The position numbers and the translations under genes are program-made. Shown one piece after another: positions 2,066 to 53,742 of a DNA stretch of 64,000 nucleotides. The stretch covers positions 62,001 through 126,000 of the forward strand of contig NZ_SGXM01000006.1 in NCBI RefSeq assembly GCF_004217045.1, read 5' to 3'. Position 1 is the first letter of the stretch; the number at the start of each line of letters is the position of its first letter. This DNA is from Cupriavidus agavae (GTDB lineage: Bacteria; Pseudomonadota; Gammaproteobacteria; Burkholderiales; Burkholderiaceae). The notes beneath the pieces were generated by a model. It saw only the letters and a program-made list of their open reading frames with translations, ran no database searches and was not told the DNA's origin.

Positions 2066-2234
2066 ACCGCTACTAGTCCTCCTCGATGACGGGCACGTCG
2101 AATACTCGATGCGCTTGCGGAAGTATGTCGCTGTTGGTTCGGCAATTTCTCTCAAGCGAACGTAACTGGTATCTCCAGACTGATGGATGGGGACGCTCAG
2201 AGCAGGTCGCGGCGGCAATTCTTCAGTGCCTGTA
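2066..2234 (+). pseudogene. short hypothetical gene remnant
   Basis: Two frames join into a plausible small protein: LLVLLDDGHVEYSMRLRKYV, then after a shift near 2160 RNWYLQTDGWGRSEQVAAAI and a stop at 2232. Residue use is that of a real protein, but no start codon fits and the frame is broken. It follows the Ala/Gly-rich remnant and may belong to the same decayed toxin/immunity locus. The family is not recognised. Confidence 0.3.
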
Positions 2235-2422
2235 GCATCCATCGCGCCGGCCGAACACAGCTCGCGTGCCTTCAATGTGAGCGCCTGTTGCTGCACGCGC
2301 CCCACATGCTCGCAAGTATGGAGAAGCTCAACTGGGGCATGTTTGATAATATTGTTGGCATCAAGCAGGCCAGAGCTTAACCGAGCCGAAGCACTCGACG
2401 GTTCGCCTCCACGACGCAAAGG

Positions 2423-2449
2423 TTGACTTCATCCTGTGGCTGCTATGAT
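2423..2449 (+). promoter_or_regulatory. promoter-like element of cassette copy 1
   Basis: TTGACT at 2423-2428 and TATGAT at 2444-2449 are separated by 15 bases. The same pair, with nearly the same spacer, precedes cassette copy 2 (37140-37166). Conservation between two otherwise diverged loci supports a shared control region. The 15-base spacing is short for a sigma-70 promoter. Confidence 0.5.
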
Positions 2450-2505
2450 TGCTGGGTAACCTCGGAGTCGGTCACTCGGAGGTCAAGAATCCTTTCCTCA
2501 GCCCA

Positions 2506-2808
2506 ATGAAGCGTTTTGATATCCGTCACCCTAGTCCCCGAACGGGTCGACTGGTTTCTCCCCCGGCAAGTAAACGTCGGATTTGCGCTTGTTGTGGTCG
2601 TAAAGTGGCCGAGGGTTGGGTTCTACCAAACGGTGATTCGCTTTGTGGTAGTTGCGAAGACCTGGTCGCCCGGGCAGAACTCTATCGGGCCGAGACGACA
2701 GGAGCGACATTCGCAGGGTACTGCTTGTATATGGAGCGACTAAACGGCTCCGCGGTCGATGCTGTCCCCCGGAAGTACTTGGTGAAGTATTTTGAGGTCA
2801 GTTCGTAA
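2506..2808 (+). CDS. small zinc-ribbon-like protein (cassette gene 1, copy 1)
   Basis: The 100-residue product has a basic N-terminus and then two cysteine pairs, C27-x2-C30 and C47-x2-C50, typical of a zinc knuckle. The C-terminal half (EDLVARAELYRAETTGATFA, then GYCLYMERL and VPRKYLVKYFE) is well conserved in the second copy at 37222-37485. The ATG at 2506 is the first in frame after the promoter-like element; a TTG at 2449 is possible but overlaps the -10. The next gene starts 9 bases after the stop, so the two are probably co-transcribed. I do not recognise the family. Zinc binding and perhaps nucleic-acid or protein contact are inferred from the cysteines. Confidence 0.65.
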   Translation: MKRFDIRHPSPRTGRLVSPPASKRRICACCGRKVAEGWVLPNGDSLCGSCEDLVARAELYRAETTGATFAGYCLYMERLNGSAVDAVPRKYLVKYFEVSS

Positions 2809-2817
2809 GGGTCTCGC

Positions 2818-3081
2818 ATGGAAATGACGCTCGAGCAGGTGAAACAGATCTACCGAGAAGCGATGGATCCCTTGGCGAAGGATGCCGAGGGTTCGGACTG
2901 GTGGGCGTCCGTCTTTGCTAACGTGACGGGCGTGGTGAGAGCCAAGAGTCTGATTGACGCGGCAGAAGTCATACAATGGTGGCATTCGGATTGGGAATGG
3001 AATCAGGTGGCGGACAGTCCGTTGGAAGCCGCCCAGCGAATCCGTGATGCCGCGCATGCCGTTGGATCCCCGACGGCGTAG
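2818..3081 (+). CDS. hypothetical 87-residue protein (cassette gene 2, copy 1)
   Basis: The product begins MEMTLEQVKQIYREAMDPLA, followed by a glutamate/tryptophan-rich segment (WWHSDWEWNQV) and a helical tail. It looks soluble and mostly helical, with no signal peptide or membrane segment. The copy at 37476-37739 is the same length and identical at most positions, including the paired tryptophans, so purifying selection is likely. A ribosome site (GGTCTCGC) is poor, and translation may depend on the gene just upstream. The family is not recognised. The acidic, tryptophan-rich core could be a protein-binding face. Confidence 0.65.
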   Translation: MEMTLEQVKQIYREAMDPLAKDAEGSDWWASVFANVTGVVRAKSLIDAAEVIQWWHSDWEWNQVADSPLEAAQRIRDAAHAVGSPTA

Positions 3082-3160
3082 CATTGGCGACGCAGGATGT
3101 CTTGCCACATGCGGCTCTAGGCGTAGTTGGCAATCCAGAAAAGTTTCGAGAGATACTACG

Positions 3161-3376
3161 GTGAAATCCGACAAGCCCTTGGCCGAAGGCCGATATCGCG
3201 CAAAATGCAAAGAGGCGAATGGCTTGCAGGCCCTGCTTGCGGGTCATTCGCAAGTCTTTCCTGAAGCTGAAGTTGTGGTCAAAGACGGATGGGCCAACTT
3301 TTATCGCGACGGGAAAAAGGTCTGGTCCTGTAACCCTCACTACGCAGCGCTGCAGTTCCTAATCGAATCGAAGTGA
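3161..3376 (+). CDS. small WANFYRDG-type protein (cassette gene 3, copy 1)
   Basis: The 71-residue protein starts at a GTG (reading KSDKPLAEGRYRAKCKEAN), the same start codon as in copy 2 at 37846. Its core is VVVKDGWANFYRDGKKVWSC followed by NPHYAALQF. The pattern DG-W-x-x-F-x-RDG-x-x-VW-x-CN-x-x-YAA-x-x-F recurs in copy 2 and in a third gene at 18313-18561, which defines a small protein family inside this window. The fold is likely a compact beta-sheet with aromatic residues. There is no signal peptide. Function is unknown. It overlaps nothing and lies 79 bases after cassette gene 2. Confidence 0.65.
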   Translation: MKSDKPLAEGRYRAKCKEANGLQALLAGHSQVFPEAEVVVKDGWANFYRDGKKVWSCNPHYAALQFLIESK

Positions 3377-3390
3377 ATCATGCGGACCGC

Positions 3391-3644
3391 ATGACGGCGA
3401 TTATTGTGTCGGCGCCATCTGTCGGCACACATATTGAAGGCGTATCCCGAGTGGCGCACCGACGTGTTTCGTTCTTTTTTAGAACGGAGCAGAGGTTCTG
3501 GTCTACTGGCGGTGCCAGTGCGACGACGATGTTCTGCCACTTCCTGTCGTCTGAAACGCGATTCTCCGGCTGATTGCCGTGAATCTCAAAACGTTGACCC
3601 TCGCATCGAAACGAGGGCTCAAGGTCGTTCATGACTCAGCCTGA
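3391..3644 (+). pseudogene. cassette gene 4, copy 1, frameshifted
   Basis: The DNA aligns with the intact gene at 38058-38339: both follow cassette gene 3 directly, share ATGCGGAC-CGCATGACGG and end in a similar GAAAC-x-GGGCTC-AGGTCGT stretch. Here the reading is split: one frame gives SAPSVGTHI, another LKAYPEWRTDVFRSFLERS, and a third resembles the C-terminus. Copy 2 is one continuous 92-residue frame. Copy 1 has therefore lost its fourth gene through at least two indels while the first three genes remain open. Confidence 0.55.
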
Positions 3645-4123
3645 GGATTATCTACGTCGGCCAATGCTGTGGCCGGCATCGGCCCGCGGCCGGCGACCCC
3701 CCTGACTAGCCCGCGGAACCCGAACTCAAGCAGTGTGCTCCCGCCTGTTAGCGTCCAAGGCCCCCTGGTGTAACGAATCGCACTAGCTATACCTCTAGTG
3801 ACCTCGGCCTCTGAAGCTCGCGCCGGCGAACTACCTCCTGAACATCTCTGCTCGCGCCCCCTCGTAATACGCCCTGTTTGACTGAGGGCTTGCGCGGCAG
3901 GCGAGATGTGCGCAAGGGATGCGCACACGCCATAGCGCTTGGACGGGGATTTCGAGCCACGGTCCAGTGCGAACTAGCCCAATGGCCGGACTTCGTAGGC
4001 CCGTCGCACTCCGAAGGTCTTTCACGCCGCGAAAGATCGTGCAGGACGTCAGACCGCCGCCGACAGTCGAAATTTTCCAGATCGCCTAGCGTTAAAGCAG
4101 GCATTCTCGGGAGGAGACGAAAA
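3645..4123. other. non-coding stretch after cassette copy 1
   Basis: No convincing gene on the plus strand. On the minus strand an open frame contains GGSSPARASEAE near 3800-3840; a matching GGSSPAPAAEAE lies in the equivalent place after cassette copy 2 (38500-38540), and the DNA around GCCGGCGAACTACCTCC is shared. It could be a degraded convergent gene. Confidence 0.35.
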
Positions 4124-4357
4124 ATGGTCAGAAGCGCGTTGCGGGACGCTGTGATGATCAGCCGCTATATTGACGAACTGCAGGCCAAAGTGGCCGCGCA
4201 GCGCCGGGTCATCGCGGAACTGGAATTAAGCGGGCAGGATTCCCATCATGCGTCGGCGATCTTGGTTACGCTCGAAGGCGCCCTGGCCGCCCTCGAGCAA
4301 CGAAGACGGAATGCCGAAATATCGGCGCAATCCGGCGGGTCGCCTTTGCGGCGGTGA
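4124..4357 (+). CDS. small coiled-coil protein
   Basis: The 77-residue product reads SALRDAVMISRYIDELQAKV, followed by two more heptad-like helices with regularly spaced leucine and alanine, and a Ser/Gly-rich end. GGGAGGAGAC lies just upstream of the ATG at 4124 and serves as a strong ribosome site, which is why this start was preferred over the upstream in-frame ATG at 3878. A similar protein is encoded at 54820-55011: RD-x-VM-x-x-RY near the N-terminus and the same leucine spacing. The two define a short helical family, likely a helical hairpin or coiled-coil dimer. The function is not known. Confidence 0.6.
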   Translation: MVRSALRDAVMISRYIDELQAKVAAQRRVIAELELSGQDSHHASAILVTLEGALAALEQRRRNAEISAQSGGSPLRR

Positions 4358-4625: not shown

Positions 4626-5834
4626 ATGGATCCAGTCCTCAACCCCTACGCTCCAGGTGCTGGGAGCCCGCCGCCGGAACTAGCCGGTCGTGGTGACGTC
4701 CGAGAGTCGGTCCGTGTGTGTATCGAAAGGCTGCGTCGGGGTCGCCATGCCAAAAGCGTGCTGATGGTCGGCCTTCGGGGAGTCGGAAAGACGGTTCTTC
4801 TGGATAAGATGCGACAGGATGCCGAAGCCGCCGGCGCCCATACCATCCGTATCGAGGCCCCGGAGAACAAGTCGCTACCTGCCATGCTTGCTCCCCAGCT
4901 TCGTTTGGCACTACTTCGCCTGAGCAGAGTGGAGGCGGCAAGGGACTATGCGATCCGGGGGCTGCGTGCGCTTGCCGGATTCGCCCGCAAGCTAAAGGTC
5001 ACCTATAACGACATTGAAGTGGGATTGGACTTCGATCCGGAGCCCGGCTTGGCCGACAACGGAGACCTGGAAGGCGATTTGACCGCGCTCCTGGAGCAGG
5101 CAGGGGATGCCGCGAAGCATGCCGATACGGTACTGGTGATTTTCATTGACGAACTGCAATACGTGCAGGAGGATCAAATGGCAGCGCTTATTTCAGCGCT
5201 CCATCGTTGCATTCAACGTCAATTGCCGGTTACCGTCGTCGGCGCTGGACTACCGCAGCTGCGCGGTCGGATGGGAGAAGCAAAATCCTACGCCGAGCGA
5301 CTATTTGATTTTCCCGAAATAGGCCCCTTGGCAACGGCTGACGCTACCCTGGCACTCGTTAAACCGGCCGCCGACGAAGGCGTTGAACTTGAGGCAGAGG
5401 CCGTAGCAAGAATCCTGGCCGAGACGGGCGGCTATCCGTATTTTCTGCAGGAATGGGGCAAACATGCCTGGGATGTTGCGCTCCAAAGCCCGATCACCGG
5501 AGAAGACGTCGTAGGAGCATCGACCGAAGCAATCGCGGCACTCGACGAGAGCTTTTTCCGAGTTCGGTTCGATCGGCTGACGCCTGCGGAGAAGCGGTAC
5601 TTGAGGGCCATGGCCGAACTTGGTGCGGGTCCACACCGCTCAGGAGATATTGCCCAACAACTCGGTCGCAATGTCCAATCTTTCGGTCCCACCCGCAGCA
5701 GCCTCATACTGAAGGGCATGATATGGAGTCCGACTCACGGAGACACCGCGTTCACCGTGCCTCTTTTTGACCAGTTCATGAAGCGGATCATGCCCGGAGA
5801 CGAATGGGCGACCGGCACGGCAGTGGAGCAGTGA
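4626..5834 (+). CDS. P-loop ATPase with C-terminal winged-helix region
   Basis: The 402-residue protein starts DPVLNPYAPGAGSPPPELAG and has Walker A GLRGVGKT near residue 55, Walker B VLVIFIDELQY near residue 175, and a sensor-like VTVVGAGLPQLRG near 205. The C-terminal 110 residues (RLTPAEKRYLRAMAELG, then SGDIAQQLGRNVQSFGPTRS) look like a winged helix. This is the architecture of the AAA/STAND ATPase_2 and Orc1/Cdc6-like group, seen in stand-alone ATP-binding proteins. The ATG at 4626 gives the usual N-P-Y-x-PG-x-G-x-x-P-P-E-L-x-GR start; an earlier in-frame start at 4545 would run across the palindrome. No partner gene is clear: a small unknown gene follows. A role in defence or plasmid maintenance is possible but not shown. 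Confidence 0.85.
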   Translation: MDPVLNPYAPGAGSPPPELAGRGDVRESVRVCIERLRRGRHAKSVLMVGLRGVGKTVLLDKMRQDAEAAGAHTIRIEAPENKSLPAMLAPQLRLALLRLSRVEAARDYAIRGLRALAGFARKLKVTYNDIEVGLDFDPEPGLADNGDLEGDLTALLEQAGDAAKHADTVLVIFIDELQYVQEDQMAALISALHRCIQRQLPVTVVGAGLPQLRGRMGEAKSYAERLFDFPEIGPLATADATLALVKPAADEGVELEAEAVARILAETGGYPYFLQEWGKHAWDVALQSPITGEDVVGASTEAIAALDESFFRVRFDRLTPAEKRYLRAMAELGAGPHRSGDIAQQLGRNVQSFGPTRSSLILKGMIWSPTHGDTAFTVPLFDQFMKRIMPGDEWATGTAVEQ

Positions 5835-15476: not shown

Positions 15477-15602
15477 CCCATGGAATGCCCAAGCGGCTTA
15501 CGCCGACTCCCTTACACTGCTCAACTTGCCTATCGGTCGCGCTCAGCAACGCGTGAGTGCTAGTGGTTTGGGCGCAAAAGTCGTCGAGTGTACAATCGTC
15601 CG

Positions 15603-16795
15603 ATGCAGCGTCTTCAAGCCTTCAAGTTCGAGCTTCGCCCTAACGGCAAGCAGCAGCGCGACATGCGCCGCTTCGCTGGGGCGTGCCGATTCGTCTACAA
15701 CAAGGCGCTGGCGTTGCAGAAGGCCCATTACGAAGCGGGCGGCAAGTTCATTGGGTACGTGGCCATGCCCAAGCACTTGACCGAGTGGCGCAGCGGTGCA
15801 GAAACGCCGTGGCTCAAGGATGCGCCCGTTCACCCGCTGCAACACGCCCTCAAGGACATGGAGCAGGCGTACAAGAATTTCTTCGCCAAGCGTGCCGCCT
15901 TCCCGAAGTTCAAGAAGCGGGGCCAGCACGACAGCTTCCGCTACCCCGACCCCAAGCAATTCAAGCTCGAACGAGCGCATCTTCCTGCCCAAGCTGGGCT
16001 GGATGCGTCTGCGCCTGTCGCGCCCGGTCATGGGCGAATTGCGCAATGTCAGCATCAGCTTGTCGGGCAGCAAATGGTTCGTCTCCATCCAGACCGAGCG
16101 CGAGGTGGTGCAGCCGGTGCCGCAAGCGATGAGCGCGGTTGGTATCGACATAGGCATTGCCCGTTTCGCTACGATGAGCGATGGCAGCTTCCTCGCACCG
16201 CTCAACAGCTTCAAGAAACATGAGGCTTGCCTGCGCCGCTACCAACGCGCGATGAGCCGCAAGACCAAGTTCAGCAACAATTGGAAAAAGGCGAAAGCGC
16301 GTCCAGCGCATTCACACCCGCATCGGCAACGCCCGCCGCGACTACCTGCACAAAGCCACGACCACGATCAGCAAAAACCACGCGATGGTGTGTATCGAGG
16401 ACTTGCAGGTGCGGAACATGTCCAGGTCGGCGGCAGGCAGCACCGAGGCACCGGGAAGAAATGTTCGGGCCAAGTCCGGCCTGAACAAGTCCATCCTCGA
16501 TCAGGGCTGGTTCGAGTTCCGTCGCCAGTTGGACTACAAGGTGTCGTGGAGCGGTGGATGGCTGGTGGCCGTGCCATCGGCGAACACAAGCCGGACATGT
16601 CCGGTTTGTGGATGCGTGAGTGCAGAGAACCGGACCACGCAGGCAAAATTTGCCTGCGTCGAATGCGGTTACGAAGAGAACGCCGATGTCGTCGGCGCTC
16701 TCAACATTTTGGCGCGAGGACATCGCGTTGCAGCCTGTGGAGAGCCGGTGCAGTCGGGCCGCTCCGTGAAGCAGGAACCCGCCGAGGCGATCTGA
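15603..16795 (+). pseudogene. tnpB: TnpB (IS200/IS605 OrfB) RNA-guided nuclease, two frameshifts
   Basis: Three frames join into a nearly full-length TnpB. Frame one (15603 to about 15970) has FKFELRPNGKQQRDMRRFAG and RFVYNKALALQK. Frame two (to about 16300) has RIFLPKLGWMRLRLSRP and the first catalytic Asp in VGIDIG (GAC 16147-16149). Frame three has RIHTRIGNARRDYLHKATTT, the catalytic Glu in CIEDL (16397-16399), a zinc ribbon CPVC...CVEC and the last Asp in NADVVGALN (16685-16687). All three RuvC residues are intact, but two single-base indels split the gene. TnpB cleaves DNA guided by an RNA made from the element's 3' end. No TnpA accompanies it here. Confidence 0.9.
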
Positions 16796-16857
16796 GACGG
16801 GCACATCGTTTTAGACGCGGTAGGAATCCTCCGCCTTCAGGCAGGGGAGGATGTCAA
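15603..16857 (+). mobile_element. IS200/IS605-type element, tnpB-only
   Basis: The right end is clear: after the tnpB stop come TTTTAGACGCGG and a hairpin (CCTCCGCC...GGGGAGG) ending at ATGTCAA, position 16857, where a YciI gene begins abruptly on the other strand. The same right end recurs at 61995-62220. The left end was not located; the element must begin somewhere before 15603. No target duplication is expected for this family. Confidence 0.75.
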
Positions 16858-17063
16858 CGCAACAGCTCTTCGACCTCCTCCTTGTGTGCTGCTTGGACGA
16901 TCCATAGGCCTCCAACCGGCGCTGCTTCGGGATCCGATCTCAGCGATCCTGCGGCTAAAATCTTCTCTCGATAGAGTCGCAGCCAATCGATATGCGCATC
17001 GAAATGAGTCGTTCGTAGTGCCGATTGGTTTGGCTTGTCATGAAAACGAACGGCGAATAGCAT
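16854..17063 (-). pseudogene. YciI-like protein, C-terminus cut by the insertion element
   Basis: The frame reads LFAVRFHDKPNQSALRTTHF, then DAHIDWLRLYREKILAAGSL and GGLWIVQAAHKEEVEELL. This is the first two thirds of a YCII-domain protein, including the His and the G-G-L-W-I-V strand; YciI proteins are normally near 95 residues and this one stops at 69. The stop codon is made by the element's last bases (TCAA at 16854-16857 read on the minus strand), so the truncation coincides exactly with the insertion. The missing C-terminus was not found on the other side of the element, suggesting a deletion. YciI relatives are small dehydrogenase-like or hydrolase-like proteins of uncertain role. Confidence 0.75.
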
Positions 17064-17513
17064 GCCCGATGCTCACAGAATATAGTTGAGCACTAGTAAC
17101 GGAATCAGGGTCTTCGTCTGTCTATGCGCAGTCCTCTACTGTACTTGCCAGCAACATTGGCCGAAGCGTTGCGAAAGTTACGTAAAGCCGGAAGTCGCGA
17201 ACTCGGCCCCGAGAGCCTAGGCGGCGACTCGTCGAACCTGATGATTGGATGGATTGGCGCTACGGCCCCGCACGTGGTGCTGATATGCCTTGGGGTTGAG
17301 ATTATCGAGCTCAAGCCGTTGGTCAGGACCGGCGTTGTTGGATGCGCCTTTCCGAAGCGGTTCGAGTAGTGTCTTCATAGGCGAATATGCGACCTATGCT
17401 GGACACTCGGAAAGCAAGCGATGCCACAGAAACTGGCGTCCGGTTGCGAAGACCTACCACTGTCCACTGGCGCTCTGATGGATCTATTGCCAGGCAGGCG
17501 CCATAACCGTTTG
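17064..17513. other. intergenic, no supported gene
   Basis: A plus-strand frame at 17124-17369 (LYLPATLAEALRKLRKAGSR) is open for 81 codons with fair composition but no ribosome site and no known family. Nothing else seen. Confidence 0.3.
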
Positions 17514-17831
17514 CTAAGCGGCTTCTTCGGCGATAAGAAAACGCTTCGGATTCTTCCCCAGCCATGCAGGAGCGCGGCCCCGTCCCGACCAAGTGTTCCC
17601 AGTCTTAGGATCTCTGTATTTAGGCGGCAGTGGAGCCTTCGCGACGCCGTTTGAAGCTTTCGCCGGACGGCCGCGACCACGCTTCTTGGCAATGTCGTCG
17701 ACTGTCAGTCCGTAGTCGGCCATCAGCTCCTGGATTCTCGAGATCACACCGGCAACTTCTTCAGCACGAACTTCATGCAACTTTGCTTCTAAGGCCGCCT
17801 TTTCCGCCATCAGTTGTTTATACGTTGCCAT
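17514..17831 (-). CDS. H-NS family nucleoid-associated protein
   Basis: The 105-residue protein has the two parts of beta-proteobacterial H-NS relatives: an N-terminal helical dimerisation region (ATYKQLMAEKAALEAKLHEV, then RAEEVAGVISRIQELMADYG) and a C-terminal DNA-binding region YRDPKTGNTWSGRGRAPAWL, with an AT-hook-like basic stretch KKRGRGRPAK before it. Such proteins bind AT-rich DNA and silence horizontally acquired genes. A second, more diverged H-NS-like gene lies 97 bases upstream on the same strand, and the window's accessory content gives it plenty of targets. Start and ribosome site (GAGGTAACTCC) are clear. Confidence 0.93.
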   Translation of the reverse strand: MATYKQLMAEKAALEAKLHEVRAEEVAGVISRIQELMADYGLTVDDIAKKRGRGRPAKASNGVAKAPLPPKYRDPKTGNTWSGRGRAPAWLGKNPKRFLIAEEAA

Positions 17832-17928
17832 TTGGAGTTACCTCGGTGATGGATGAATCATTCAATGCTATATCAAATCGCCTAGGCAGGCGAACCGGTA
17901 TTCTTAAGAACTTGGCTGGGCGAGCGTC

Positions 17929-18249
17929 CTAGTCAACCTTGAAATGGTCTACCGTTTGGCCCTTGTGCGTTGCGCGCTGCAGCCATTCTGGCATTTCTCC
18001 CATCCCGTCCCATGTATGACCGGCGGCATCCTTGTATTTCACCTTCGCGTTGGTACGTTGCGAAAACCGATGCGCCTCAAAACACCCCGTCTCGAGGAGT
18101 TGGGCGAAAGTTATTCCGTTGCGGGCCATTGTGGTCCTAATCCACAGGATCGCGTCTGCCTTAGCTCGCCCAAATACCAGTTCTTGTGACGAAGACAGCG
18201 GATCCTTGAGCAGCGCCTGCGGCGCGCCAATTGATTTCGCGGAGTGCAT
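17929..18249 (-). CDS. H-NS-like DNA-binding protein, diverged
   Basis: The C-terminal part KYKDAAGHTWDGMGEMPEWL keeps the H-NS family's G-x-TW-x-G-x-G-x-x-P-x-WL pattern, but two basic residues that contact the minor groove in the usual R-G-R/Q-G-R loop are replaced (DGMGEM). The N-terminal part (AILWIRTTMARNGITFAQLL) is unlike the usual coiled-coil dimerisation helix and contains GITFAQL, similar to the 'G-L-T-x-x-D-L' segment. The 106-residue protein may bind DNA weakly or act as a modulator of the neighbouring H-NS. A third small gene of another family (18313-18561) lies just upstream on the same strand. Confidence 0.8.
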   Translation of the reverse strand: MHSAKSIGAPQALLKDPLSSSQELVFGRAKADAILWIRTTMARNGITFAQLLETGCFEAHRFSQRTNAKVKYKDAAGHTWDGMGEMPEWLQRATHKGQTVDHFKVD

Positions 18250-18312
18250 GGTTGCTTTGGTGATGACGTGACCGCGGTCACAAAGTGAGAGGTCAGGAGA
18301 CCGTGCGCGAGC

Positions 18313-18561
18313 CTAGCGGATCGTCGGCGGAGACGAAGAAGTCGTGACTTCTTTGCAGTCGAAGTGTGCTGCAGCATATGTCGCGTTACAAGCCCACACC
18401 TCTTCACCATCCCGTACGAAGCTCACCCAGTGGCCGTCGCTAATACATTCCGCTCCCGGATAGACTTCATCATGCCCGTTTGGCCCGTCCAGCGGAAAGG
18501 GGTCATGGGGGATGGCCCAATAGCGCCCGGGAGGGAGGGCTGCAACCTGTTTCCTGCTCAT
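18313..18561 (-). CDS. WVSFVRDG-type small protein, third relative of cassette gene 3
   Basis: The 82-residue product has ALPPGRYWAIPHD at the N-terminus, then VYPGAECISDGHWVSFVRDG and EEVWACNATYAAAHFDC. Aligned with cassette gene 3 (3161-3376 and 37846-38061) it shares V-Y/F-P, DG-x-W-x-x-F-x-RDG-x-x-VW-x-CN-x-x-YAA-x-HF and the GRY near the N-terminus. A 10-residue insertion separates the two halves. It thus belongs to the same unknown family but stands next to H-NS genes instead of in a cassette. There is no signal peptide; the function is unknown. Confidence 0.65.
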   Translation of the reverse strand: MSRKQVAALPPGRYWAIPHDPFPLDGPNGHDEVYPGAECISDGHWVSFVRDGEEVWACNATYAAAHFDCKEVTTSSSPPTIR

Positions 18562-27756: not shown

Positions 27757-28415
27757 CTCGAGCGAGTTTTGCGCGAAACCCAAGCTGGCGAGCGCGTTTT
27801 TTGCCCAAGTTGAGCGCGACCGCCGTTTGAAGTCATGAAGGCCCCTGTCGATCTGCATCGCGATACCTTGGGAGTCGAGCCGATCTGCAAGGGCTTGCGG
27901 ATTGTTTGGTCTGGCTATCTGCGCCATGCCGCTGCTTCGTGACCTGTTCGGCGCTCTGGGAGAGCCAAGCTCGACGAGTAGCTCGATCCGAGATCAAACG
28001 GGTCTGGCAAACCAACATGCAGGTCTACGGCGCCGACAACCATTGACCAGATCCGGCGGAGGCACTGCTCCGTATCTGGCGTCGTGATGCGAATCCGTCC
28101 GCCGCGAACGACACCGCGTACTTCGCTGCTTCATCAACGGCGCAACGGTGCAGTGTGCGACCGCGTCCGCTTCACGGTTCATCTGCTTCCAAGCTCCGTT
28201 CCGTGCTCAACGGTCCGAATTGCATCTAGGTTTCGGACTTCACCTACGTTTCGATATGGCAGGGAGGGTTGTACGTTGCGTTTGTGATCGACGTGTTCGC
28301 CCGGTGTATCGTTGGCTGGTGGGTCAGTTCGTCGATGACCACGGATTTCGTTCTGGACGCACTCGACCAGAGGCAAACTACTATCGGCAGCTTGAGGAGA
28401 CTGGTGCAGAACCAG
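27757..28415 (+). mobile_element. IS3-family transposase remnant
   Basis: Pieces of the IS3 OrfA end and OrfB can be read across several frames: PKLASAFFAQVERDRRLK, then APVDLHRDTLGVEPICKGLR (the usual D-x-H-R-x-x-x-GVEPICK), VWQTNMQVYGAD, and DFTYVSIWQGGLYVAFVIDV followed by FARCIVGWWVSSSMTTDFVL DALDQRQ. The last segment is the DDE integrase core with the first two Asp residues. Frames change many times and the third catalytic residue is not found, so the element is long dead. It ends the SIR2-like gene fragment on its left. Confidence 0.8.
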
Positions 28416-28824
28416 CGCTAATCTAACGCAGTTAGCCTCCACGATTGCCGGTGCGACTGAGTGAGATGCGCGCGTAGCAATCGTGGTGGAATGATCGGCC
28501 GCTCCCGGCTGCGGATTCAGCCGGGCGACACTAAGGGGTGGAGCGATCAGGGAGGGCCGGAAGCCAGAGCCAGTCTGGACTTCGAAACACAATTCCGATC
28601 TACGCACCGTATTCAATATAAATTGTGATCGACCCGGTTGAGTTACGGTTCGTCGGACCGATCCGCAATCGCTAAAAGCAGAAGAATCAAGGGTCATCGC
28701 GACTCCGGAATACACTACTCGGTCGGCGTTTATCACAGTTGTGAAGCACGAAAAATGCACCCGTTTCGCTATAGTCGGTCAGCGCGAACCTTAGGTTCTC
28801 GAGAACACCAGAAGCCAAGTTGCA
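28416..28824. other. intergenic with an inverted repeat
   Basis: CCACGATTGC at 28439-28448 and GCAATCGTGG at 28477-28486 form 10-base perfect arms around a 28-base loop, just after the IS3 remnant; it may be a hairpin or a leftover element end. No gene recognised. Confidence 0.4.
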
Positions 28825-36845: not shown

Positions 36846-37139
36846 TCGATCTTATGGATGAAATGCCCATGAGGGCGTCTAAAAGAACCGCGGCATGCTG
36901 ATCCGTGCGAGCCGGCAATTTCTGTTGAGTTTGGTGCTGCCGCCAGCGCTGCATCGCACTGGCCGCATCGAGCCCGTATGCCACTCAAGCAGAATATGGG
37001 CAGCCTGCTGCGCACGCGCCCCCAAGCTGGCAATCGCGAATCGGCTCAATTTGACCAGTGGTTAATACTATAATCGGTGCCAAATCGAACACAGTCGACC
37101 GCGCTGAAGCGCGGGTTGATGTGCAGCCGCCCCCGAGGG
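36846..37139. other. intergenic before cassette copy 2
   Basis: About 290 bases with no gene recognised; it marks the switch from the catabolic operon to the four-gene cassette. Confidence 0.4.
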
Positions 37140-37166
37140 TTGACGTCATCTTGCGGCTGCTATGAT
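37140..37166 (+). promoter_or_regulatory. promoter-like element of cassette copy 2
   Basis: TTGACG at 37140-37145 and TATGAT at 37161-37166 with a 15-base spacer (TCATCTTGCGGCTGC) match the element before copy 1 at 2423-2449, which differs by a few bases in the spacer. Confidence 0.5.
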
Positions 37167-37221
37167 GACTGTGTCACCTTGAAGTCGCCATTCTGGGGTC
37201 AAGAATCCTTTAGTGAGGCCA

Positions 37222-37485
37222 ATGACCAAGTGCCCGTCGAACCTGTTCGTGTTGCGGTCGCAAAGTGGCGAAGGTTGGGTTCTCCCAAACGGTGATTCGT
37301 TCTGTGCGAGCTGCGAAGACCTGGTTGCTTGGGCAGAACTGTATCGAGCCGAGACGACAGGGGCGACATTCGGCGGATACTGCTTGTACATGGAGCGACT
37401 AGGCGGCTCCGCGGTTGATGATGTACCGCGAAAGTATTTGGTGAAGTATTTTGATGTCCGTCAGCAAGGGACCATATGGAAATGA
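37222..37485 (+). CDS. zinc-ribbon-like protein with altered N-terminus (cassette gene 1, copy 2)
   Basis: The C-terminal 70 residues (SGEGWVLPNGDSFCASCEDL, then VAWAELYRAETTGATFGGYC and VPRKYLVKYFDV) match copy 1. The N-terminal cysteine pair is out of frame: RTCSCCGRKVA can be read in another frame, and one base is missing in the GTGGCGAAGG where copy 1 has GTGGCCGAGG. Translation from the ATG at 37222 gives a protein that keeps only the second C-x2-C, so zinc binding is doubtful. The stop overlaps the next gene's start by ten bases, unlike copy 1. It is probably damaged, or the missing base is a sequencing error. Confidence 0.55.
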   Translation: MTKCPSNLFVLRSQSGEGWVLPNGDSFCASCEDLVAWAELYRAETTGATFGGYCLYMERLGGSAVDDVPRKYLVKYFDVRQQGTIWK

Positions 37486-37739
37486 CGCTCGAGCAGGTAA
37501 AGCAGATCTACCGAGAATCGATCGACCCCTTGGCAAAGGATGCCGAGGGTGCGGAATGGTGGGGGTCCGTCGCTGCTAACGTGAGGGGCGTGGTGAGAGC
37601 TCCCAGTCTGAGCGAAGCAGCAGGAATTATCCAATGGTGGCATTCGGGATGGGAGTGGAGTCAGGTTCGCCACAGTGCGTCCGATGCCGCCCAGCGAGTC
37701 CGTGACGCCGCTCAAGCCCTAGGCTGGTCAGCCGCGTAG
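37476..37739 (+). CDS. hypothetical 87-residue protein (cassette gene 2, copy 2)
   Basis: The product begins MEMTLEQVKQIYRESIDPLA and contains the same IIQWWHSGWEWSQV core as copy 1 at 2818-3081. The two proteins have equal length and differ mainly in the loops and the last helix. The start lies inside the end of cassette gene 1. No signal peptide, no membrane segment, no recognised family. Same length and a preserved tryptophan core in both copies argue that the protein is functional. Confidence 0.65.
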   Translation: MEMTLEQVKQIYRESIDPLAKDAEGAEWWGSVAANVRGVVRAPSLSEAAGIIQWWHSGWEWSQVRHSASDAAQRVRDAAQALGWSAA

Positions 37740-37845
37740 AGAACGAGACAAGAGACGGTTCGACCTCAGCCCACTGCTCGCAACCAGCTATATAACTAGC
37801 GCAACAGCTGTCATCGATACTCTGCTTAATTTGTGAGGTACTCCC

Positions 37846-38061
37846 GTGAAGTCCGACAAGCCCTTGGCAGATGGCCGCTATCGCGCAAGATGCAAGGAGG
37901 CGAATGCCATCCAGGCGCTGCTTGCCGGTCATTCGGCAGTCTTTCCTGACGCTGACGTTGTGGTCAAAGACGGCTGGGCGAATTTTTACCGTGATGGGAA
38001 GAAAGTCTGGTCGTGCAACCCGCAATACGCGGCGCTGCACTTCCTGATCGAGCCGAAATGA
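37846..38061 (+). CDS. small WANFYRDG-type protein (cassette gene 3, copy 2)
   Basis: The 71-residue protein starts with GTG, as in copy 1, and reads KSDKPLADGRYRARCKEANA, then VVVKDGWANFYRDGKKVWSC and NPQYAALHFLIEPK. It is about 85 percent identical to the copy at 3161-3376 by eye and shares a core pattern with 18313-18561. Its stop overlaps the start of gene 4 (ATGA at 38058), so the last two genes are translationally coupled. The function is unknown. Confidence 0.7.
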   Translation: MKSDKPLADGRYRARCKEANAIQALLAGHSAVFPDADVVVKDGWANFYRDGKKVWSCNPQYAALHFLIEPK

Positions 38062-38339
38062 CCCATGCGGACTGCATGACGGAGACTAGAGTGCTGACCC
38101 CCTATCAATCCGCACACATATCGAAGGTCTATCCTGAGTGTCGCGCCGACATGCGCCACTATTTTGAAACGGGAGCGCAGGTCGTGGTATACAGGCAGCA
38201 CGAGTGCGGCGACGACGTTCTGCCGTTTGCACTCGCCGTGTCAGGGACCGATTTTTGGATCGATTGCTGTGAGTCGCCGCGAGCAGCGTTGACCCTCGCA
38301 TCGAAACTCGGACTCGAGGTCGTCAAGGTCTCAGTTTGA
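38058..38339 (+). CDS. hypothetical protein (cassette gene 4, copy 2)
   Basis: The 93-residue protein starts at ATG 38058 inside the previous stop codon; a second ATG at 38076 is also possible. The sequence YQSAHISKVYPECRADMRHY, then FETGAQVVVYRQHECGDDVL and FALAVSGTDFWIDCCESPRA suggests a small mixed alpha/beta fold with several cysteines and histidines. Copy 1 (3391-3644) is frameshifted, so this is the only intact version in the window. No signal peptide. The family is not recognised. Confidence 0.6.
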   Translation: MTHADCMTETRVLTPYQSAHISKVYPECRADMRHYFETGAQVVVYRQHECGDDVLPFALAVSGTDFWIDCCESPRAALTLASKLGLEVVKVSV

Positions 38340-38613
38340 GAATTGCCAGCAGTGGACAACGCCGTGTACGGGATCGGCGCGCACCTGGCCGGCTCGCGCG
38401 GCCGATCTCCGGCATCTTGAACTCACGCACTTCGCTGCCATCTATTGGCGTTCGCTTCGCCTCCGTGCAGTAAGACGCTAGATGTACAAATGGCGCCCGC
38501 TCGGCTTCTGCAGCAGGCGCCGGCGAACTACCTCCCCAAACGTGCTGACGCTGCGATGCTCGCGTCCTTTGTTGGGGCGCAGCCCTTACCGTTTGCCGGC
38601 CCCTCAATCGCAT

Positions 38614-44341: not shown

Positions 44342-45300
44342 ACCTTCACCTTGGCTTCCTTGACGATGCGGGCCCACTTGACGCATTCGGCGTTGATGAA
44401 TTCGCCGAAATGGGCCGCACTCCCTCCTCCGTCCTCGGCGCCGAAGCTGTCCAATCGCTGGGCGACATCGGGCATCGTCATCACGCGGTTCAGGTCAGCA
44501 TTCATCTTGCCAACCAACGCGGCCGGCATCCGTGCCGGGCCGACGAGGCCATACCAGGTGCCCGCATCGAAGCCCGGAAATCCCGATTCCGCGAGGGTTG
44601 GCACATTGGAGAAGCTGGCCGCCCGGTGCAGGCGTGTCTGAGCGATGGCCACAGCCTTGCCGCCGCGGATTTGTGGCGTCGCGGAGGTCATCGTCTCGAA
44701 GCTAAAGTCAATCTGGCCCCCGACGAGATCGGTCAGCATGGGCGCCGAACCACGATAGGGCACATGGAGAGCGTCTACGCCCGCGCGAAGCTTGAACATC
44801 TCCAGTGCCAGATGCTGCGCCGCCCCTGCGCCGGAGGAGCCGAAGGCGATCTTTCCCGGCTGACTCCGGCACAGTGCGACCACGTCCTGCACGGTGCGTG
44901 CCGGGCCGCCGGCGCGGCAGATCAGCAGGTTGGGGGTCACCCCGACCAGCATGATTGGCGTAAAGTCCTTTTCTACCGAGTAGCCAATCTTCGGATAGAG
45001 GCTTGGCGCGATCGCATGGTTGCTAATGTTGGTCATGAGCAGGGTGCTGCCATCGGCTGGCTGACGCGCCGCGTACTCCGCTGCCACGACGCCTGCGGCG
45101 CCCGGGCGGTTCTCTACGATCACGGATGTGTGCCATACCGCAGACAGCTTCTCGGCCAGCACGCGTGCCATGACGTCGGTGCCACCGCCCGGCGGAAAGC
45201 CGACGATGATACGGATGGGTCCAGCGGGAAGTGTCTGGGCTTGTACCCAGGGCGCGGCCAGCATGGCGGCGCCCGCGCCGATAAACGTACGACGTTGCAT
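44338..45300 (-). CDS. Bug/TctC-type receptor (2)
   Basis: The 320-residue precursor has a twin-arginine-like signal start (QRRTFIGAGAAMLAAPWVQA) with probable cleavage after VQA. Family motifs: GPIRIIVGFPPGGGTDVMAR, ENRPGAAGVVAAEYAAR, FGSSGAGAAQHLALEMFKLR, HVPYRGSAPMLTDLVGGQID and PTLAESGFPGFDAGTWYGLV. It belongs to the same minus-strand operon as a complete TRAP system, so this locus encodes two separate kinds of periplasmic receptor. The stop of this gene overlaps the FAH gene start by four bases. Confidence 0.94.
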   Translation of the reverse strand: MQRRTFIGAGAAMLAAPWVQAQTLPAGPIRIIVGFPPGGGTDVMARVLAEKLSAVWHTSVIVENRPGAAGVVAAEYAARQPADGSTLLMTNISNHAIAPSLYPKIGYSVEKDFTPIMLVGVTPNLLICRAGGPARTVQDVVALCRSQPGKIAFGSSGAGAAQHLALEMFKLRAGVDALHVPYRGSAPMLTDLVGGQIDFSFETMTSATPQIRGGKAVAIAQTRLHRAASFSNVPTLAESGFPGFDAGTWYGLVGPARMPAALVGKMNADLNRVMTMPDVAQRLDSFGAEDGGGSAAHFGEFINAECVKWARIVKEAKVKV

Positions 45301-45375
45301 GGCGGTCTCCTGTCTAGTTCTAGGTGTCGTGTAATGCGAAGGCAGCGACTGCGGCGAGAGCCTGATGCGGCGGCG

Positions 45376-46515
45376 TCAGAGCGATTCCGTGAGCATCGCG
45401 AGGTAGTCCGACGGGCTGGCGATGCGTGGATTGGTTTTGTGGCAGTGATCGGCCATGGCGTAATCGATTACGCGGGGGAACAAAGCCGGGTCGACCCCCA
45501 TCTGCGCAAGTCCGGTCGGCAGACCCAGGCGGCGGCTCTTCTCGACGATGGCCCCCTCGACATCGGCAGCGCTGCCGAGGCCCATCGCCTGCGCCATTCG
45601 CCCCAGCCGGTCCTCATCGCGCACCGAGGGCGACTGGGCGTTGAACCGGATGACGGCAGGCAGCAGCACGGCGTTGAGCGTGCCGTGATGCAGTGTGGGC
45701 ATGAGGCCGCCCAGCGCGTGGCTCAAACTGTGCACGCAGCCAAGTCCCTTCTGGAAGGCCAGCGCGCCCTGGGTCGAAGCGCTCATCATTGCCAGCCTCG
45801 CGTCTCGGTTGTTGGGCTCGCGCTGGGCCAGTTCGATGTGCTGCCAGCCGCGACGCAGGCCGTCCAGCGCGATGCCGTCAGCCGGCGGATTGAAGGCCGG
45901 CGCCATGAACGTCTCCATGCAGTGGGCGATGGCATCCATGCCGGTGGCGGCCGTGAGGCCAGGTGGCAGCCCGAACGTCAGTTCCGGGTCGCAGATGGCT
46001 ACGCGGGGCACGATATGGGGAGACAGCACGCCAACCTTGCGGCCGTCATCGAGAATCAGGACGGCGCCACGCCCCACCTCGCTGCCAGTGCCGGCCGTGG
46101 TGGGAACAGCGATAACCGGGGCCGTTGCTGCGGTGATGCGGGCTACGCCGCCCTCGACGGCAGCAAACTGTCGCAACGGGCCGTCATGGGTCGCGCACAC
46201 CGCGACGCCCTTGGCCAGGTCGATCGGCGAGCCGCCCCCAATAGCGATGATCCCGTCGCAGCGGTAATCACGGTACAGCGCAACAGCCTCGCGCATGGCG
46301 CTTTCGGTCGGGTTCGACGGCGTACCGTCATAGATCACCGCCTCCATGCCGGGAGGGAACTGTTCGAGCGCGCGCTGAGCGATTCCGGCGGCTCTTACGC
46401 CTGCGTCGGTGACTACCAGCGGACGCGTGATGCCGATGCGCTCGCATTCCTGTGCCAACAGTTTGATGGCACCAAAGTCAATCTGGATTTGTGTGATGTA
46501 TTGGATCAGCGGCAT
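45376..46515 (-). CDS. iron-containing alcohol dehydrogenase
   Basis: The 379-residue protein is a group III dehydrogenase. The NAD(P) site GGGSPIDLAKGVAV, the metal ligands in DAIAHCMETF and GCVHSLSHALGGLMPTLHHG TLNAVLLP, and the PTTAGTGSEVG motif are in place. Enzymes of this group reduce or oxidise alcohols, and one branch (maleylacetate reductases) works in aromatic ring degradation. It is the first gene of the minus-strand operon, 75 bases before the Bug receptor. The ATG at 46515 has GGAGACACC upstream. Confidence 0.93.
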   Translation of the reverse strand: MPLIQYITQIQIDFGAIKLLAQECERIGITRPLVVTDAGVRAAGIAQRALEQFPPGMEAVIYDGTPSNPTESAMREAVALYRDYRCDGIIAIGGGSPIDLAKGVAVCATHDGPLRQFAAVEGGVARITAATAPVIAVPTTAGTGSEVGRGAVLILDDGRKVGVLSPHIVPRVAICDPELTFGLPPGLTAATGMDAIAHCMETFMAPAFNPPADGIALDGLRRGWQHIELAQREPNNRDARLAMMSASTQGALAFQKGLGCVHSLSHALGGLMPTLHHGTLNAVLLPAVIRFNAQSPSVRDEDRLGRMAQAMGLGSAADVEGAIVEKSRRLGLPTGLAQMGVDPALFPRVIDYAMADHCHKTNPRIASPSDYLAMLTESL

Positions 46516-52314: not shown

Positions 52315-52548
52315 GGTCTCGCGTTCTTGTCGGGTCGCAACACCGCTGCGTCTCCCGCCCGCCGGTCACAGGACGCCTGTCCTCATCCCGACGGAGCTGG
52401 GGATACACCATAGCACCGCAAGCAAGGGGAGGCCATAGGGTCCTTCCCCGCGCAGATCAGCTGGTCGATGGTAACGAGAGCGATCGTCGTCGACTCCCCC
52501 AAGTGTGAAGCAAGCGCCCAACTGAGGCGGGAAAGTCTCCCAGCCCAG

Positions 52549-52895
52549 AGCCGCGACTTCGAGGCCGAACTGGTGGAGTTCGATGGCGAGGAAGACCACG
52601 TCCACCTGCTGGTGAACATTCCACCCAAGGTCTCGGTGTCGTCGCTGGTGAACAGCCTCAAGGGCGTGTCCAGCGCATGATAAGGCAAAAACGTTACCCC
52701 AGTATCCGCAAGAAGCTGTGGGGCGCTGCGCTATGGTCGCCGTCCTACTTTGCCGGAAGCTGTGGCGGGGCACCCCATCGAGATCGTACGCCAGTACATC
52801 GAACAACAGAAAACGCCACATTAACCGCAGCAAAGGACGCCTACGGCGTCCGCGCTACCCTTCCCCGCCCTGAAGGGCGAGGTTTGACGCGCATT
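52549..52895 (+). mobile_element. tnpA: IS200/IS605-type TnpA (Y1 transposase) remnant
   Basis: From 52549 the plus strand reads RDFEAELVEFDGEEDHVHLL followed by VNIPPKVSVSSLVNSLKGVS, where HVH is the HUH metal motif. A frame change near 52677 leads to RYPSIRKKLWGAALWSPSYF then AGSCGGA, and another near 52772 to IEIVRQYIEQQKTPH with the catalytic Tyr. The N-terminal third of the enzyme is missing. A GCCCTGAAGGGC hairpin that resembles the family's right end follows at about 52868-52879. The element abuts a truncated quinone oxidoreductase gene. Confidence 0.8.
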
Positions 52896-53308
52896 CCGAT
52901 CAAAAAGAGGATTACGTGGCCGCAATTCTTCGCGAGACAGCCGGCCAAGGCGTTGATGTTGTGTTCGATACTATTGGTGGTAACACGTTGACCCGCAGTC
53001 CCGAAGCTCTCGGCCAACTTGGGCGCGTCGTATCGATCGTTGATACTGCGCAGCCTCAGAATCTGTTGCACGCATGGGGTAAGAACGCGAGCTATCACTT
53101 CGTGTTCACAGGACAGAACCGAGGCAAGCTCGATGAGCTCAGTGCGTTGGTTGAGCGCGGCCAACTGCGCCCGCACGTCGGTGCTGTCTATTCCCTCGCC
53201 GACATCCCGTTGGCCCACGCGCGGCTTGAGAGTTCGAACAACGGTCTGCAGGGAAAAATCGCGATAGCGGTTGGCCCTTTGGCGCTACTCGGCGTTGGTA
53301 ACGTCTGA
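52892..53308 (+). pseudogene. quinone oxidoreductase-type dehydrogenase, C-terminal fragment
   Basis: The frame is open from about 52892 and reads [20 protein letters not shown], then [20 protein letters not shown] and [20 protein letters not shown] followed by [20 protein letters not shown]. These are the last 135 residues of a zinc-type or zeta-crystallin-type medium-chain reductase. The N-terminal 200 residues with the NADP loop are missing, and an IS200-type remnant lies exactly where they should be. It is open to translation from a GTG at 52916 but cannot bind cofactor. Confidence 0.8.
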
Positions 53309-53460
53309 ACAGACGAGTCACACGAGCGAAAGAGCGGCGGCGATAGCGGCCGGAGCACCCTCACAGTTGGCATTGTTCGCGGTGTTCACCCAAACGGGTA
53401 TTGTCGAAGTAGCCCAATTTGCTATTTTTCTGGACTACAAGAGATTGCCGAGGAGAAGCA

Positions 53461-53742
53461 GTGCCAACACTTATCAAACGGCCGGACAACATCACGGAGC
53501 GCCAAAAGATGATCCTGGCAAGCCTGCAACAAGGGCATAAAGGGACATTGCAGGTATCTCCGCTATCTGGAGGGTTCACCGGCTATGTGCGCGTCTTTAA
53601 TGTTGCACGCAACGTGGATGAGTTGATTCCTTGGGGCAGTGTCTTGGCGATGATCCGTCGGGGTTTTGTCAGATTGGACGGTGACTCCCTCCAGACGTCC
53701 ACTTCGATTGTGCTGTGTGTGAAGCCGGCTGAAGGAGTCTAG
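53461..53742 (+). CDS. hypothetical 93-residue protein
   Basis: The product starts at GTG 53461 (PTLIKRPDNITERQKMILAS) with GGAGAAGCA as ribosome site; an ATG further upstream gives a poor N-terminus. A basic helical N-terminal part is followed by a beta-rich end (GYVRVFNVARNVDELIPWGS, then IRRGFVRLDGDSLQTSTSIV). Soluble; no known family. It sits alone after the broken reductase gene. Confidence 0.5.
   Translation: MPTLIKRPDNITERQKMILASLQQGHKGTLQVSPLSGGFTGYVRVFNVARNVDELIPWGSVLAMIRRGFVRLDGDSLQTSTSIVLCVKPAEGV

Follow-up and report, generated by a model that had tools for sequence, protein, structure and literature searches.

Two diverged copies of a run of unnamed, putatively accessory plasmid genes in Cupriavidus agavae

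A 245,136-base contig of C. agavae carries the same run of four small, nameless genes at two places. Both lie in the stretch of 64,000 nucleotides analysed here (contig positions 62001-126000, hereafter the window), and they raise the question of what these genes are, how they came to be present twice and whether they still work. Genes for a Rep3 initiator, adjoining ParA and ParB (ParB_N) proteins, CagE/TrbE/VirB type IV secretion ATPases and a TraG-D coupling protein are located on the same contig, indicating that it is all or part of a plasmid. Both cassettes thus lie on a replicon that also encodes replication, partition and transfer functions, as in a plasmid accessory array.

The two copies and the state of their genes

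Comparison of the contig with itself (blastn) aligned the two runs, copies A and B, collinearly over 1321 columns with 74% DNA identity (E=0), the promoter region forming a separate block of 89 nt (80% identical). With sensitive settings, the homologous block covered window 2227-3842 and 36938-38539 at 70% identity. The duplication noticed in the preliminary description at 2423-3644 and 37140-38339 was thereby borne out. This likeness is not due to chance, given the E value and the promoter and leader patterns, which were found at copies A and B only across the 245-kb contig. The features are as follows (window positions):

2227-3842, + strand: copy A of the duplicated block (blastn, contig against itself)
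2423-2449, + strand: promoter-like element in copy A, read from the sequence as TTGACT-N15-TATGAT with a TG ahead of the -10, unique on the contig apart from copy B
2506-2808, + strand: gene 1 of copy A, 100 aa, full length, zinc-ribbon-like (CxCC...CxxC)
2818-3081, + strand: gene 2 of copy A, 87 aa
3161-3376, + strand: gene 3 of copy A, 71 aa, GTG start
3374-3644, + strand: gene 4 of copy A, a pseudogene with frameshifts and stops that has drifted neutrally
36938-38539, + strand: copy B of the duplicated block (blastn, contig against itself)
37140-37166, + strand: promoter-like element of copy B, read from the sequence
37222-37485, + strand: gene 1 of copy B, shortened at its N-terminal end, frame open (alternative GTG start at 37213)
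37476-37739, + strand: gene 2 of copy B, 87 aa
37846-38061, + strand: gene 3 of copy B, 71 aa starting from GTG, a small beta-barrel by prediction
38058-38339, + strand: gene 4 of copy B, intact, its start overlapping the gene 3 stop (ATGA); family start probably at 38076

Protein identities between the copies, estimated by eye at 70 to 85% in the preliminary description, were computed at 86% for gene 1 (65 residues), about 71-73% for gene 2 and about 85-86% for gene 3. The same description had reported one damaged gene per copy, a different one in each, and both defects proved real. Gene 4 of copy A displays a 2-nt deletion, more indels and in-frame stops, while gene 1 of copy B has lost about 18 codons at its start and also carries a 1-nt deletion. 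The frame of the latter is still open over 87-90 aa, without the first cysteine cluster, passes the old stop and overlaps the start of gene 2. As a different gene is damaged in each copy, every gene is still present on the plasmid in at least one intact version, namely gene 1 in copy A, gene 4 in copy B, and genes 2 and 3 in both.

The distribution of changes between the copies over codon positions 1/2/3 was 5/5/19 for gene 1, 12/11/27 for gene 2 and 3/3/27 for gene 3 (20/19/73 when pooled), with a pooled dN/dS of about 0.2-0.3. This third-position excess implies that the proteins of genes 1-3 were still being maintained in both copies long after these had separated. Judged by this codon pattern, all three are genuine coding genes, subject to purifying selection in A and B alike. 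Gene 4 displayed a flat distribution (25/26/28), as in neutral drift, suggesting its release from constraint in copy A.

The element preceding each run had been described as TTGAC-N15-TATGAT. Its presence was confirmed and its spacing had to be amended to TTGAC-N16-TATGAT, N15 being valid only after the six-base first hexamer. It is of the extended -10 type, since TG precedes it, and it receives no score in a consensus scan with spacers of 16-18 nt. In line with a shared control, the leader is conserved between the copies at 80% identity, while likeness in the intergenic gap between genes 2 and 3 was no better than that of shuffled sequence. Each run would be transcribed as a single operon from this conserved extended -10 promoter, and translation may be coupled where only 9 nt separate gene 1 from gene 2, as in copy A, and through the ATGA overlap of genes 3 and 4 in copy B.

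In agreement with the preliminary assumption that none of the four belongs to a recognised family, no match above cut-off was obtained for any of the proteins in Pfam, NCBIfam, PHROGs, PADLOC or PDB. Scattered weak matches to adenylate kinase, DgaE, Gin and Microvir_H remained below cut-off and were ignored. A confident AlphaFold2 model of gene 4 (pLDDT 92.5) showed a helix-helix-three strands-helix-strand arrangement, for which Foldseek returned no match below E 0.1. Resemblances to NDUFS4-type proteins (Z 5-6) and AcrIF5 (Z 2.7) were not used, as such scores may reflect a common arrangement only.

Origin of the copies and a second duplicated module

The clusters probably represent a short series of plasmid accessory genes, all read in one direction, that is present in two old and diverged copies. 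Among all sequences retrieved, copies A and B were each other's closest relatives, the nearest other relatives of gene 2 (57%) and gene 3 (60%) both falling below the identity between the copies, and no DNA-level relative of copy A was found among 72,556 plasmids. Either a duplication or the fusion of two related plasmids could have given rise to the copies, after which different genes would have been lost from each, the other copy covering for them. Such a complementary loss is deduced from two copies only.

Self-comparison of the contig also revealed a second duplicated module (contig 52434-53613 against 79481-80548, the latter being window 17481-18548; 71% identity over 1.2 kb). It consists of a gene-3 paralogue, g3', followed by two H-NS family genes (g3'-X-HNS):

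Window 17514-17837, - strand: H-NS family gene (PF00816, E 2.5e-12), sister copy at contig 52470-52793
Window 17929-18228, - strand: H-NS-like ORF adjoining g3' (PF00816, E 1.5e-7)
Window 18346-18549, - strand: gene-3 paralogue g3'; its sister, at contig 53412-53606, lies outside the window

This module is located upstream of its cassette in both regions, with equal order and orientation, and the sister H-NS copies, like the sister g3' copies, are mutually closest. Synonymous divergence amounted to 0.54 for the cassette and 0.89 for the g3'-H-NS module; owing to this difference, the two modules may not stem from one event, although a common event for both is possible. These values bear on another explanation, according to which the same module was acquired twice independently from related plasmids, with no duplication on this plasmid. 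The high divergence between the cassette copies, their unrelated flanks and the different divergence of the second module are all in its favor. However, no sequence retrieved was closer to either copy than the other copy, and cassette and g3'-H-NS module have the same relative order and orientation in both regions, which makes a twofold acquisition somewhat unlikely and argues for the ancient diverged copies proposed above.

A larger segmental duplication was considered and rejected, since the two further blocks on which it would rest were set aside, one as an apparent remnant of an IS3-type transposase and the other as an apparent LysR-type C-terminus. The former, a homologous block between the two regions, is uninformative on duplication for this reason. 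Once both had been set aside, the cassette and the g3'-H-NS module were the duplicated units. The IS3-type remnant, as read from the sequence, occupies window 27771-28464 and has an inverted partner at contig 44761-45776.

Distribution and gene order of the four families

The four families are unnamed, yet they recur in Cupriavidus, Burkholderia-type genera and Pseudomonas, where large plasmids carry them. Matches among plasmid records numbered 175 for gene 2, 133 for gene 3, 128 for gene 1 and 25 for gene 4, and came mainly from Pseudomonas, Burkholderia and Cupriavidus. Those of gene 1 were weak (29% identity, E about 1e-5) and restricted to Pseudomonas and Stutzerimonas plasmids. Of 299 genomes of the bacterial family, 27 contained gene 2, 45 gene 3 (E below 1e-15), 10 gene 4 and five gene 1; a first scan of genome contigs with gene 2 alone as query had returned no match. 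Viral contigs yielded gene 3 in three cases, gene 4 in one and gene 2 in none, and these low numbers do not favor a phage origin.

In annotated records, family members were surrounded by long one-strand strings of small hypothetical genes. The arrays of, for example, C. basilensis pRK1-1, P. putida p12969-DIM, pQBR55 and B. vietnamiensis pBVIE05 carry members of families 1-4 in this manner, on one strand and as hypothetical or unannotated genes. They differ from the present cassettes by another order and company, neither the succession 1-2-3-4 nor a duplicated cassette being seen in them.

No other locus with the order 1-2-3-4 was encountered, whether in the 60 genus and 299 family genomes, in plasmid records or at the genome loci examined. 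Other loci displayed differing orders with other genes interposed, and each family also occurred without the rest. Paraburkholderia silviterrae and P. tagetis carry gene 3, gene 2, a HEAGH gene, a DUF6283-like gene and gene 4 within 2.3 kb, while P. unamae displays gene 2, a HEAGH fragment, gene 3, an H-NS gene and two successive gene 4 members. In C. basilensis KF708, a recombinase gene is followed by gene 2, gene 4, an ATP-grasp gene, an oxygenase-like gene (2OG) and gene 3; the oxygenase label is a reading of the sequence, the protein having no Pfam match. The order was Xre, RES, gene 2, HEAGH and gene 3 in one genome (G269), and genes 1 and 3 were spaced by 1.5 kb in another. The DUF6283-like label rests on likeness to a gene annotated so in a plasmid record, and no paper on DUF6283 on plasmids was found in a literature search.

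The HEAGH protein (HExxH-type, unnamed, about 190 aa, no Pfam match) was present in seven of the 299 genomes, five of which also carried gene 2 (Fisher p 8e-5, a statistic that ignores genome kinship), and in four of these five pairs both genes lay within 1.5 kb on the same strand. Its loci include L166 9272-9900, L167 8988-9545, L191 7489-8052 and L026 6660-7262. Co-occurrence was likewise observed for genes 3 and 4 (p 0.001) and for genes 2 and 3 (p 0.0006), again irrespective of kinship among genomes.

The preliminary description had taken conserved order, coupling and control as signs of a working unit, and had proposed a synteny search in related genomes in which unrelated places and orders would speak against it. 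The genes are indeed real, selected and unnamed, and their leader is conserved, but the cassette as a conserved unit was not supported, no other locus examined having 1-2-3-4. Half of the contrary outcome was obtained, in that the orders differed, whereas the places were related, being small-gene arrays of one kind on large plasmids. Rather than a new system, the cassette represents a local and rearranged stretch of plasmid families that are unnamed but widespread.

An integron or recombinase-driven array headed by the tyrosine recombinase was rejected, as this recombinase is common on plasmids (509 records) and no recurring sites were detected. Among five arrays, recurrent intergenic repeats were absent, the exception being a short AGGAAAAC motif that precedes start codons in a single array. 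In a Burkholderia anthina plasmid array (L090), ATAGGAAAACAnnATG is repeated before several small genes (3352-3370, 3720-3738, 4208-4225 and 5245-5263), which suggests a shared ribosome-binding site or regulatory leader.

Putative functions

Large plasmids carry hundreds of small nameless genes, some of which, according to the codon statistics reported here, are truly selected. The four genes could be grouped into families across many plasmids, linked to one another, to a HExxH-type protein and, for one of them, to H-NS. Our best reading is that genes 1-4 are plasmid accessory genes with putative roles in silencing, establishment or host interaction, which were duplicated and are decaying in a complementary manner. 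Their products are possibly small soluble proteins acting separately on plasmid-host interaction, a tentative proposal in which gene 1 would encode a zinc-ribbon protein and genes 2 and 4 would be part of a wider kit comprising the HExxH-type (HEAGH) protein, the DUF6283-like protein and the RES-Xre pairs near gene 2, whereas gene 3 would act on H-NS silencing.

H-NS genes were located within 1.5 kb at 16 of 52 non-redundant gene-3 loci, compared with 4 of 35 loci of genes 2 and 4 (p=0.03). At six gene-3 loci (L146, L147, L150, L153, L154, L160), only about 32-35 nt separated both genes, on the same strand; no H-NS gene adjoins the cassette of copy A or copy B. The AlphaFold2 model of gene 3 is a confident small barrel (pLDDT 91.7) that weakly resembles SH3-like domains, FeoA and the C-terminus of DtxR among them (best Z 4.2), without a Foldseek match with E below 0.001. 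Plasmid H-NS has been reported to act as a stealth factor (PMC12826799, PMC2686267). Gene 3, a predicted small SH3-like barrel often adjoining H-NS genes, would adjust H-NS silencing and can be compared with the H-NS/Hha and Sfh stealth function of R27 (PMC2686267; for stealth plasmids, PMC12826799), with which it shares a small protein encoded beside a plasmid H-NS gene. Unlike Hha-type helpers, it is a predicted beta-barrel, and no Pfam or NCBIfam match places it in the Hha/YmoA family; it is a candidate by likeness of working. That the gene-3 family is a widespread small-barrel H-NS partner with a Hha-like role on Burkholderiales and Pseudomonas plasmids, the cassettes holding extra unlinked versions that tune plasmid silencing, has a slim chance of being correct. 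Since helpers of the Hha kind have been described as restricted to Enterobacteriaceae (PMC2686267), an H-NS partner outside this group would be of interest, and the link makes a concrete and cheap question of whether gene 3 binds or alters H-NS.

It is also conceivable, though unlikely, that these are leading-region establishment genes, encoding early-expressed counter-defence or anti-SOS proteins that guard the plasmid on entry. Such a role has been described for many uncharacterised families near oriT (PMC11541004), and leading regions likewise hold small uncharacterised genes with toxin-antitoxin and SOS-related neighbors. It would be in keeping with co-directional rows of small uncharacterised genes on plasmids that are large and often conjugative, and with the SOS-response-associated peptidase, ImuA, Abi and toxin-antitoxin genes found nearby. 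No PF03432-type relaxase was found on the contig, and no defence-related match was obtained in the PADLOC defence set or Pfam; the cassettes are, however, tens of kilobases away from the transfer genes.

A toxin-antitoxin-like system, one of the options raised in the preliminary description, would be a small addiction module with a toxin among the four genes and its antidote next to it. Small coupled genes on a plasmid fit this picture, and gene 2 is found directly downstream of a RES-Xre pair (PF08808, PF20432, PF09722) in two genomes, G269 and G289 (L167 9578-10775; L171 9690-11107), in which it could be a third component. On plasmid p1 of C. metallidurans BS1, the distance between gene 2 and such a pair is about 2.5 kb. 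In contrast to these neighborhoods, no such gene lies near either cassette, the plasmid's own RES gene being about 74 kb from copy B. In addition, no obligate neighboring pair was apparent, as each family also occurs alone and in varied order, copy A lost gene 4 with selection on genes 1-3 persisting (gene 3 remaining constrained), and neither PADLOC nor known toxin families gave a match, all of which makes this option very unlikely. Least probable of all is that both copies are dead relics with a gene-like look, for although each includes a damaged gene and other broken genes lie around them, the third-position excess and low dN/dS of genes 1-3 stand against the flat drift of gene 4 in copy A.

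Elsewhere in the window, a TnpB-type (RNA-guided endonuclease) insertion sequence occupies 15590-16860 and is about 75-81% identical to copies on other plasmids. Upstream of copy A, a weak SMI1_KNR4 (SUKH-1 immunity-type) match (E 9e-5, just below cut-off) beside an alanine- and glycine-rich broken frame, at 1124-1489 and 1590-2050, looks like debris of a secreted-toxin immunity locus.
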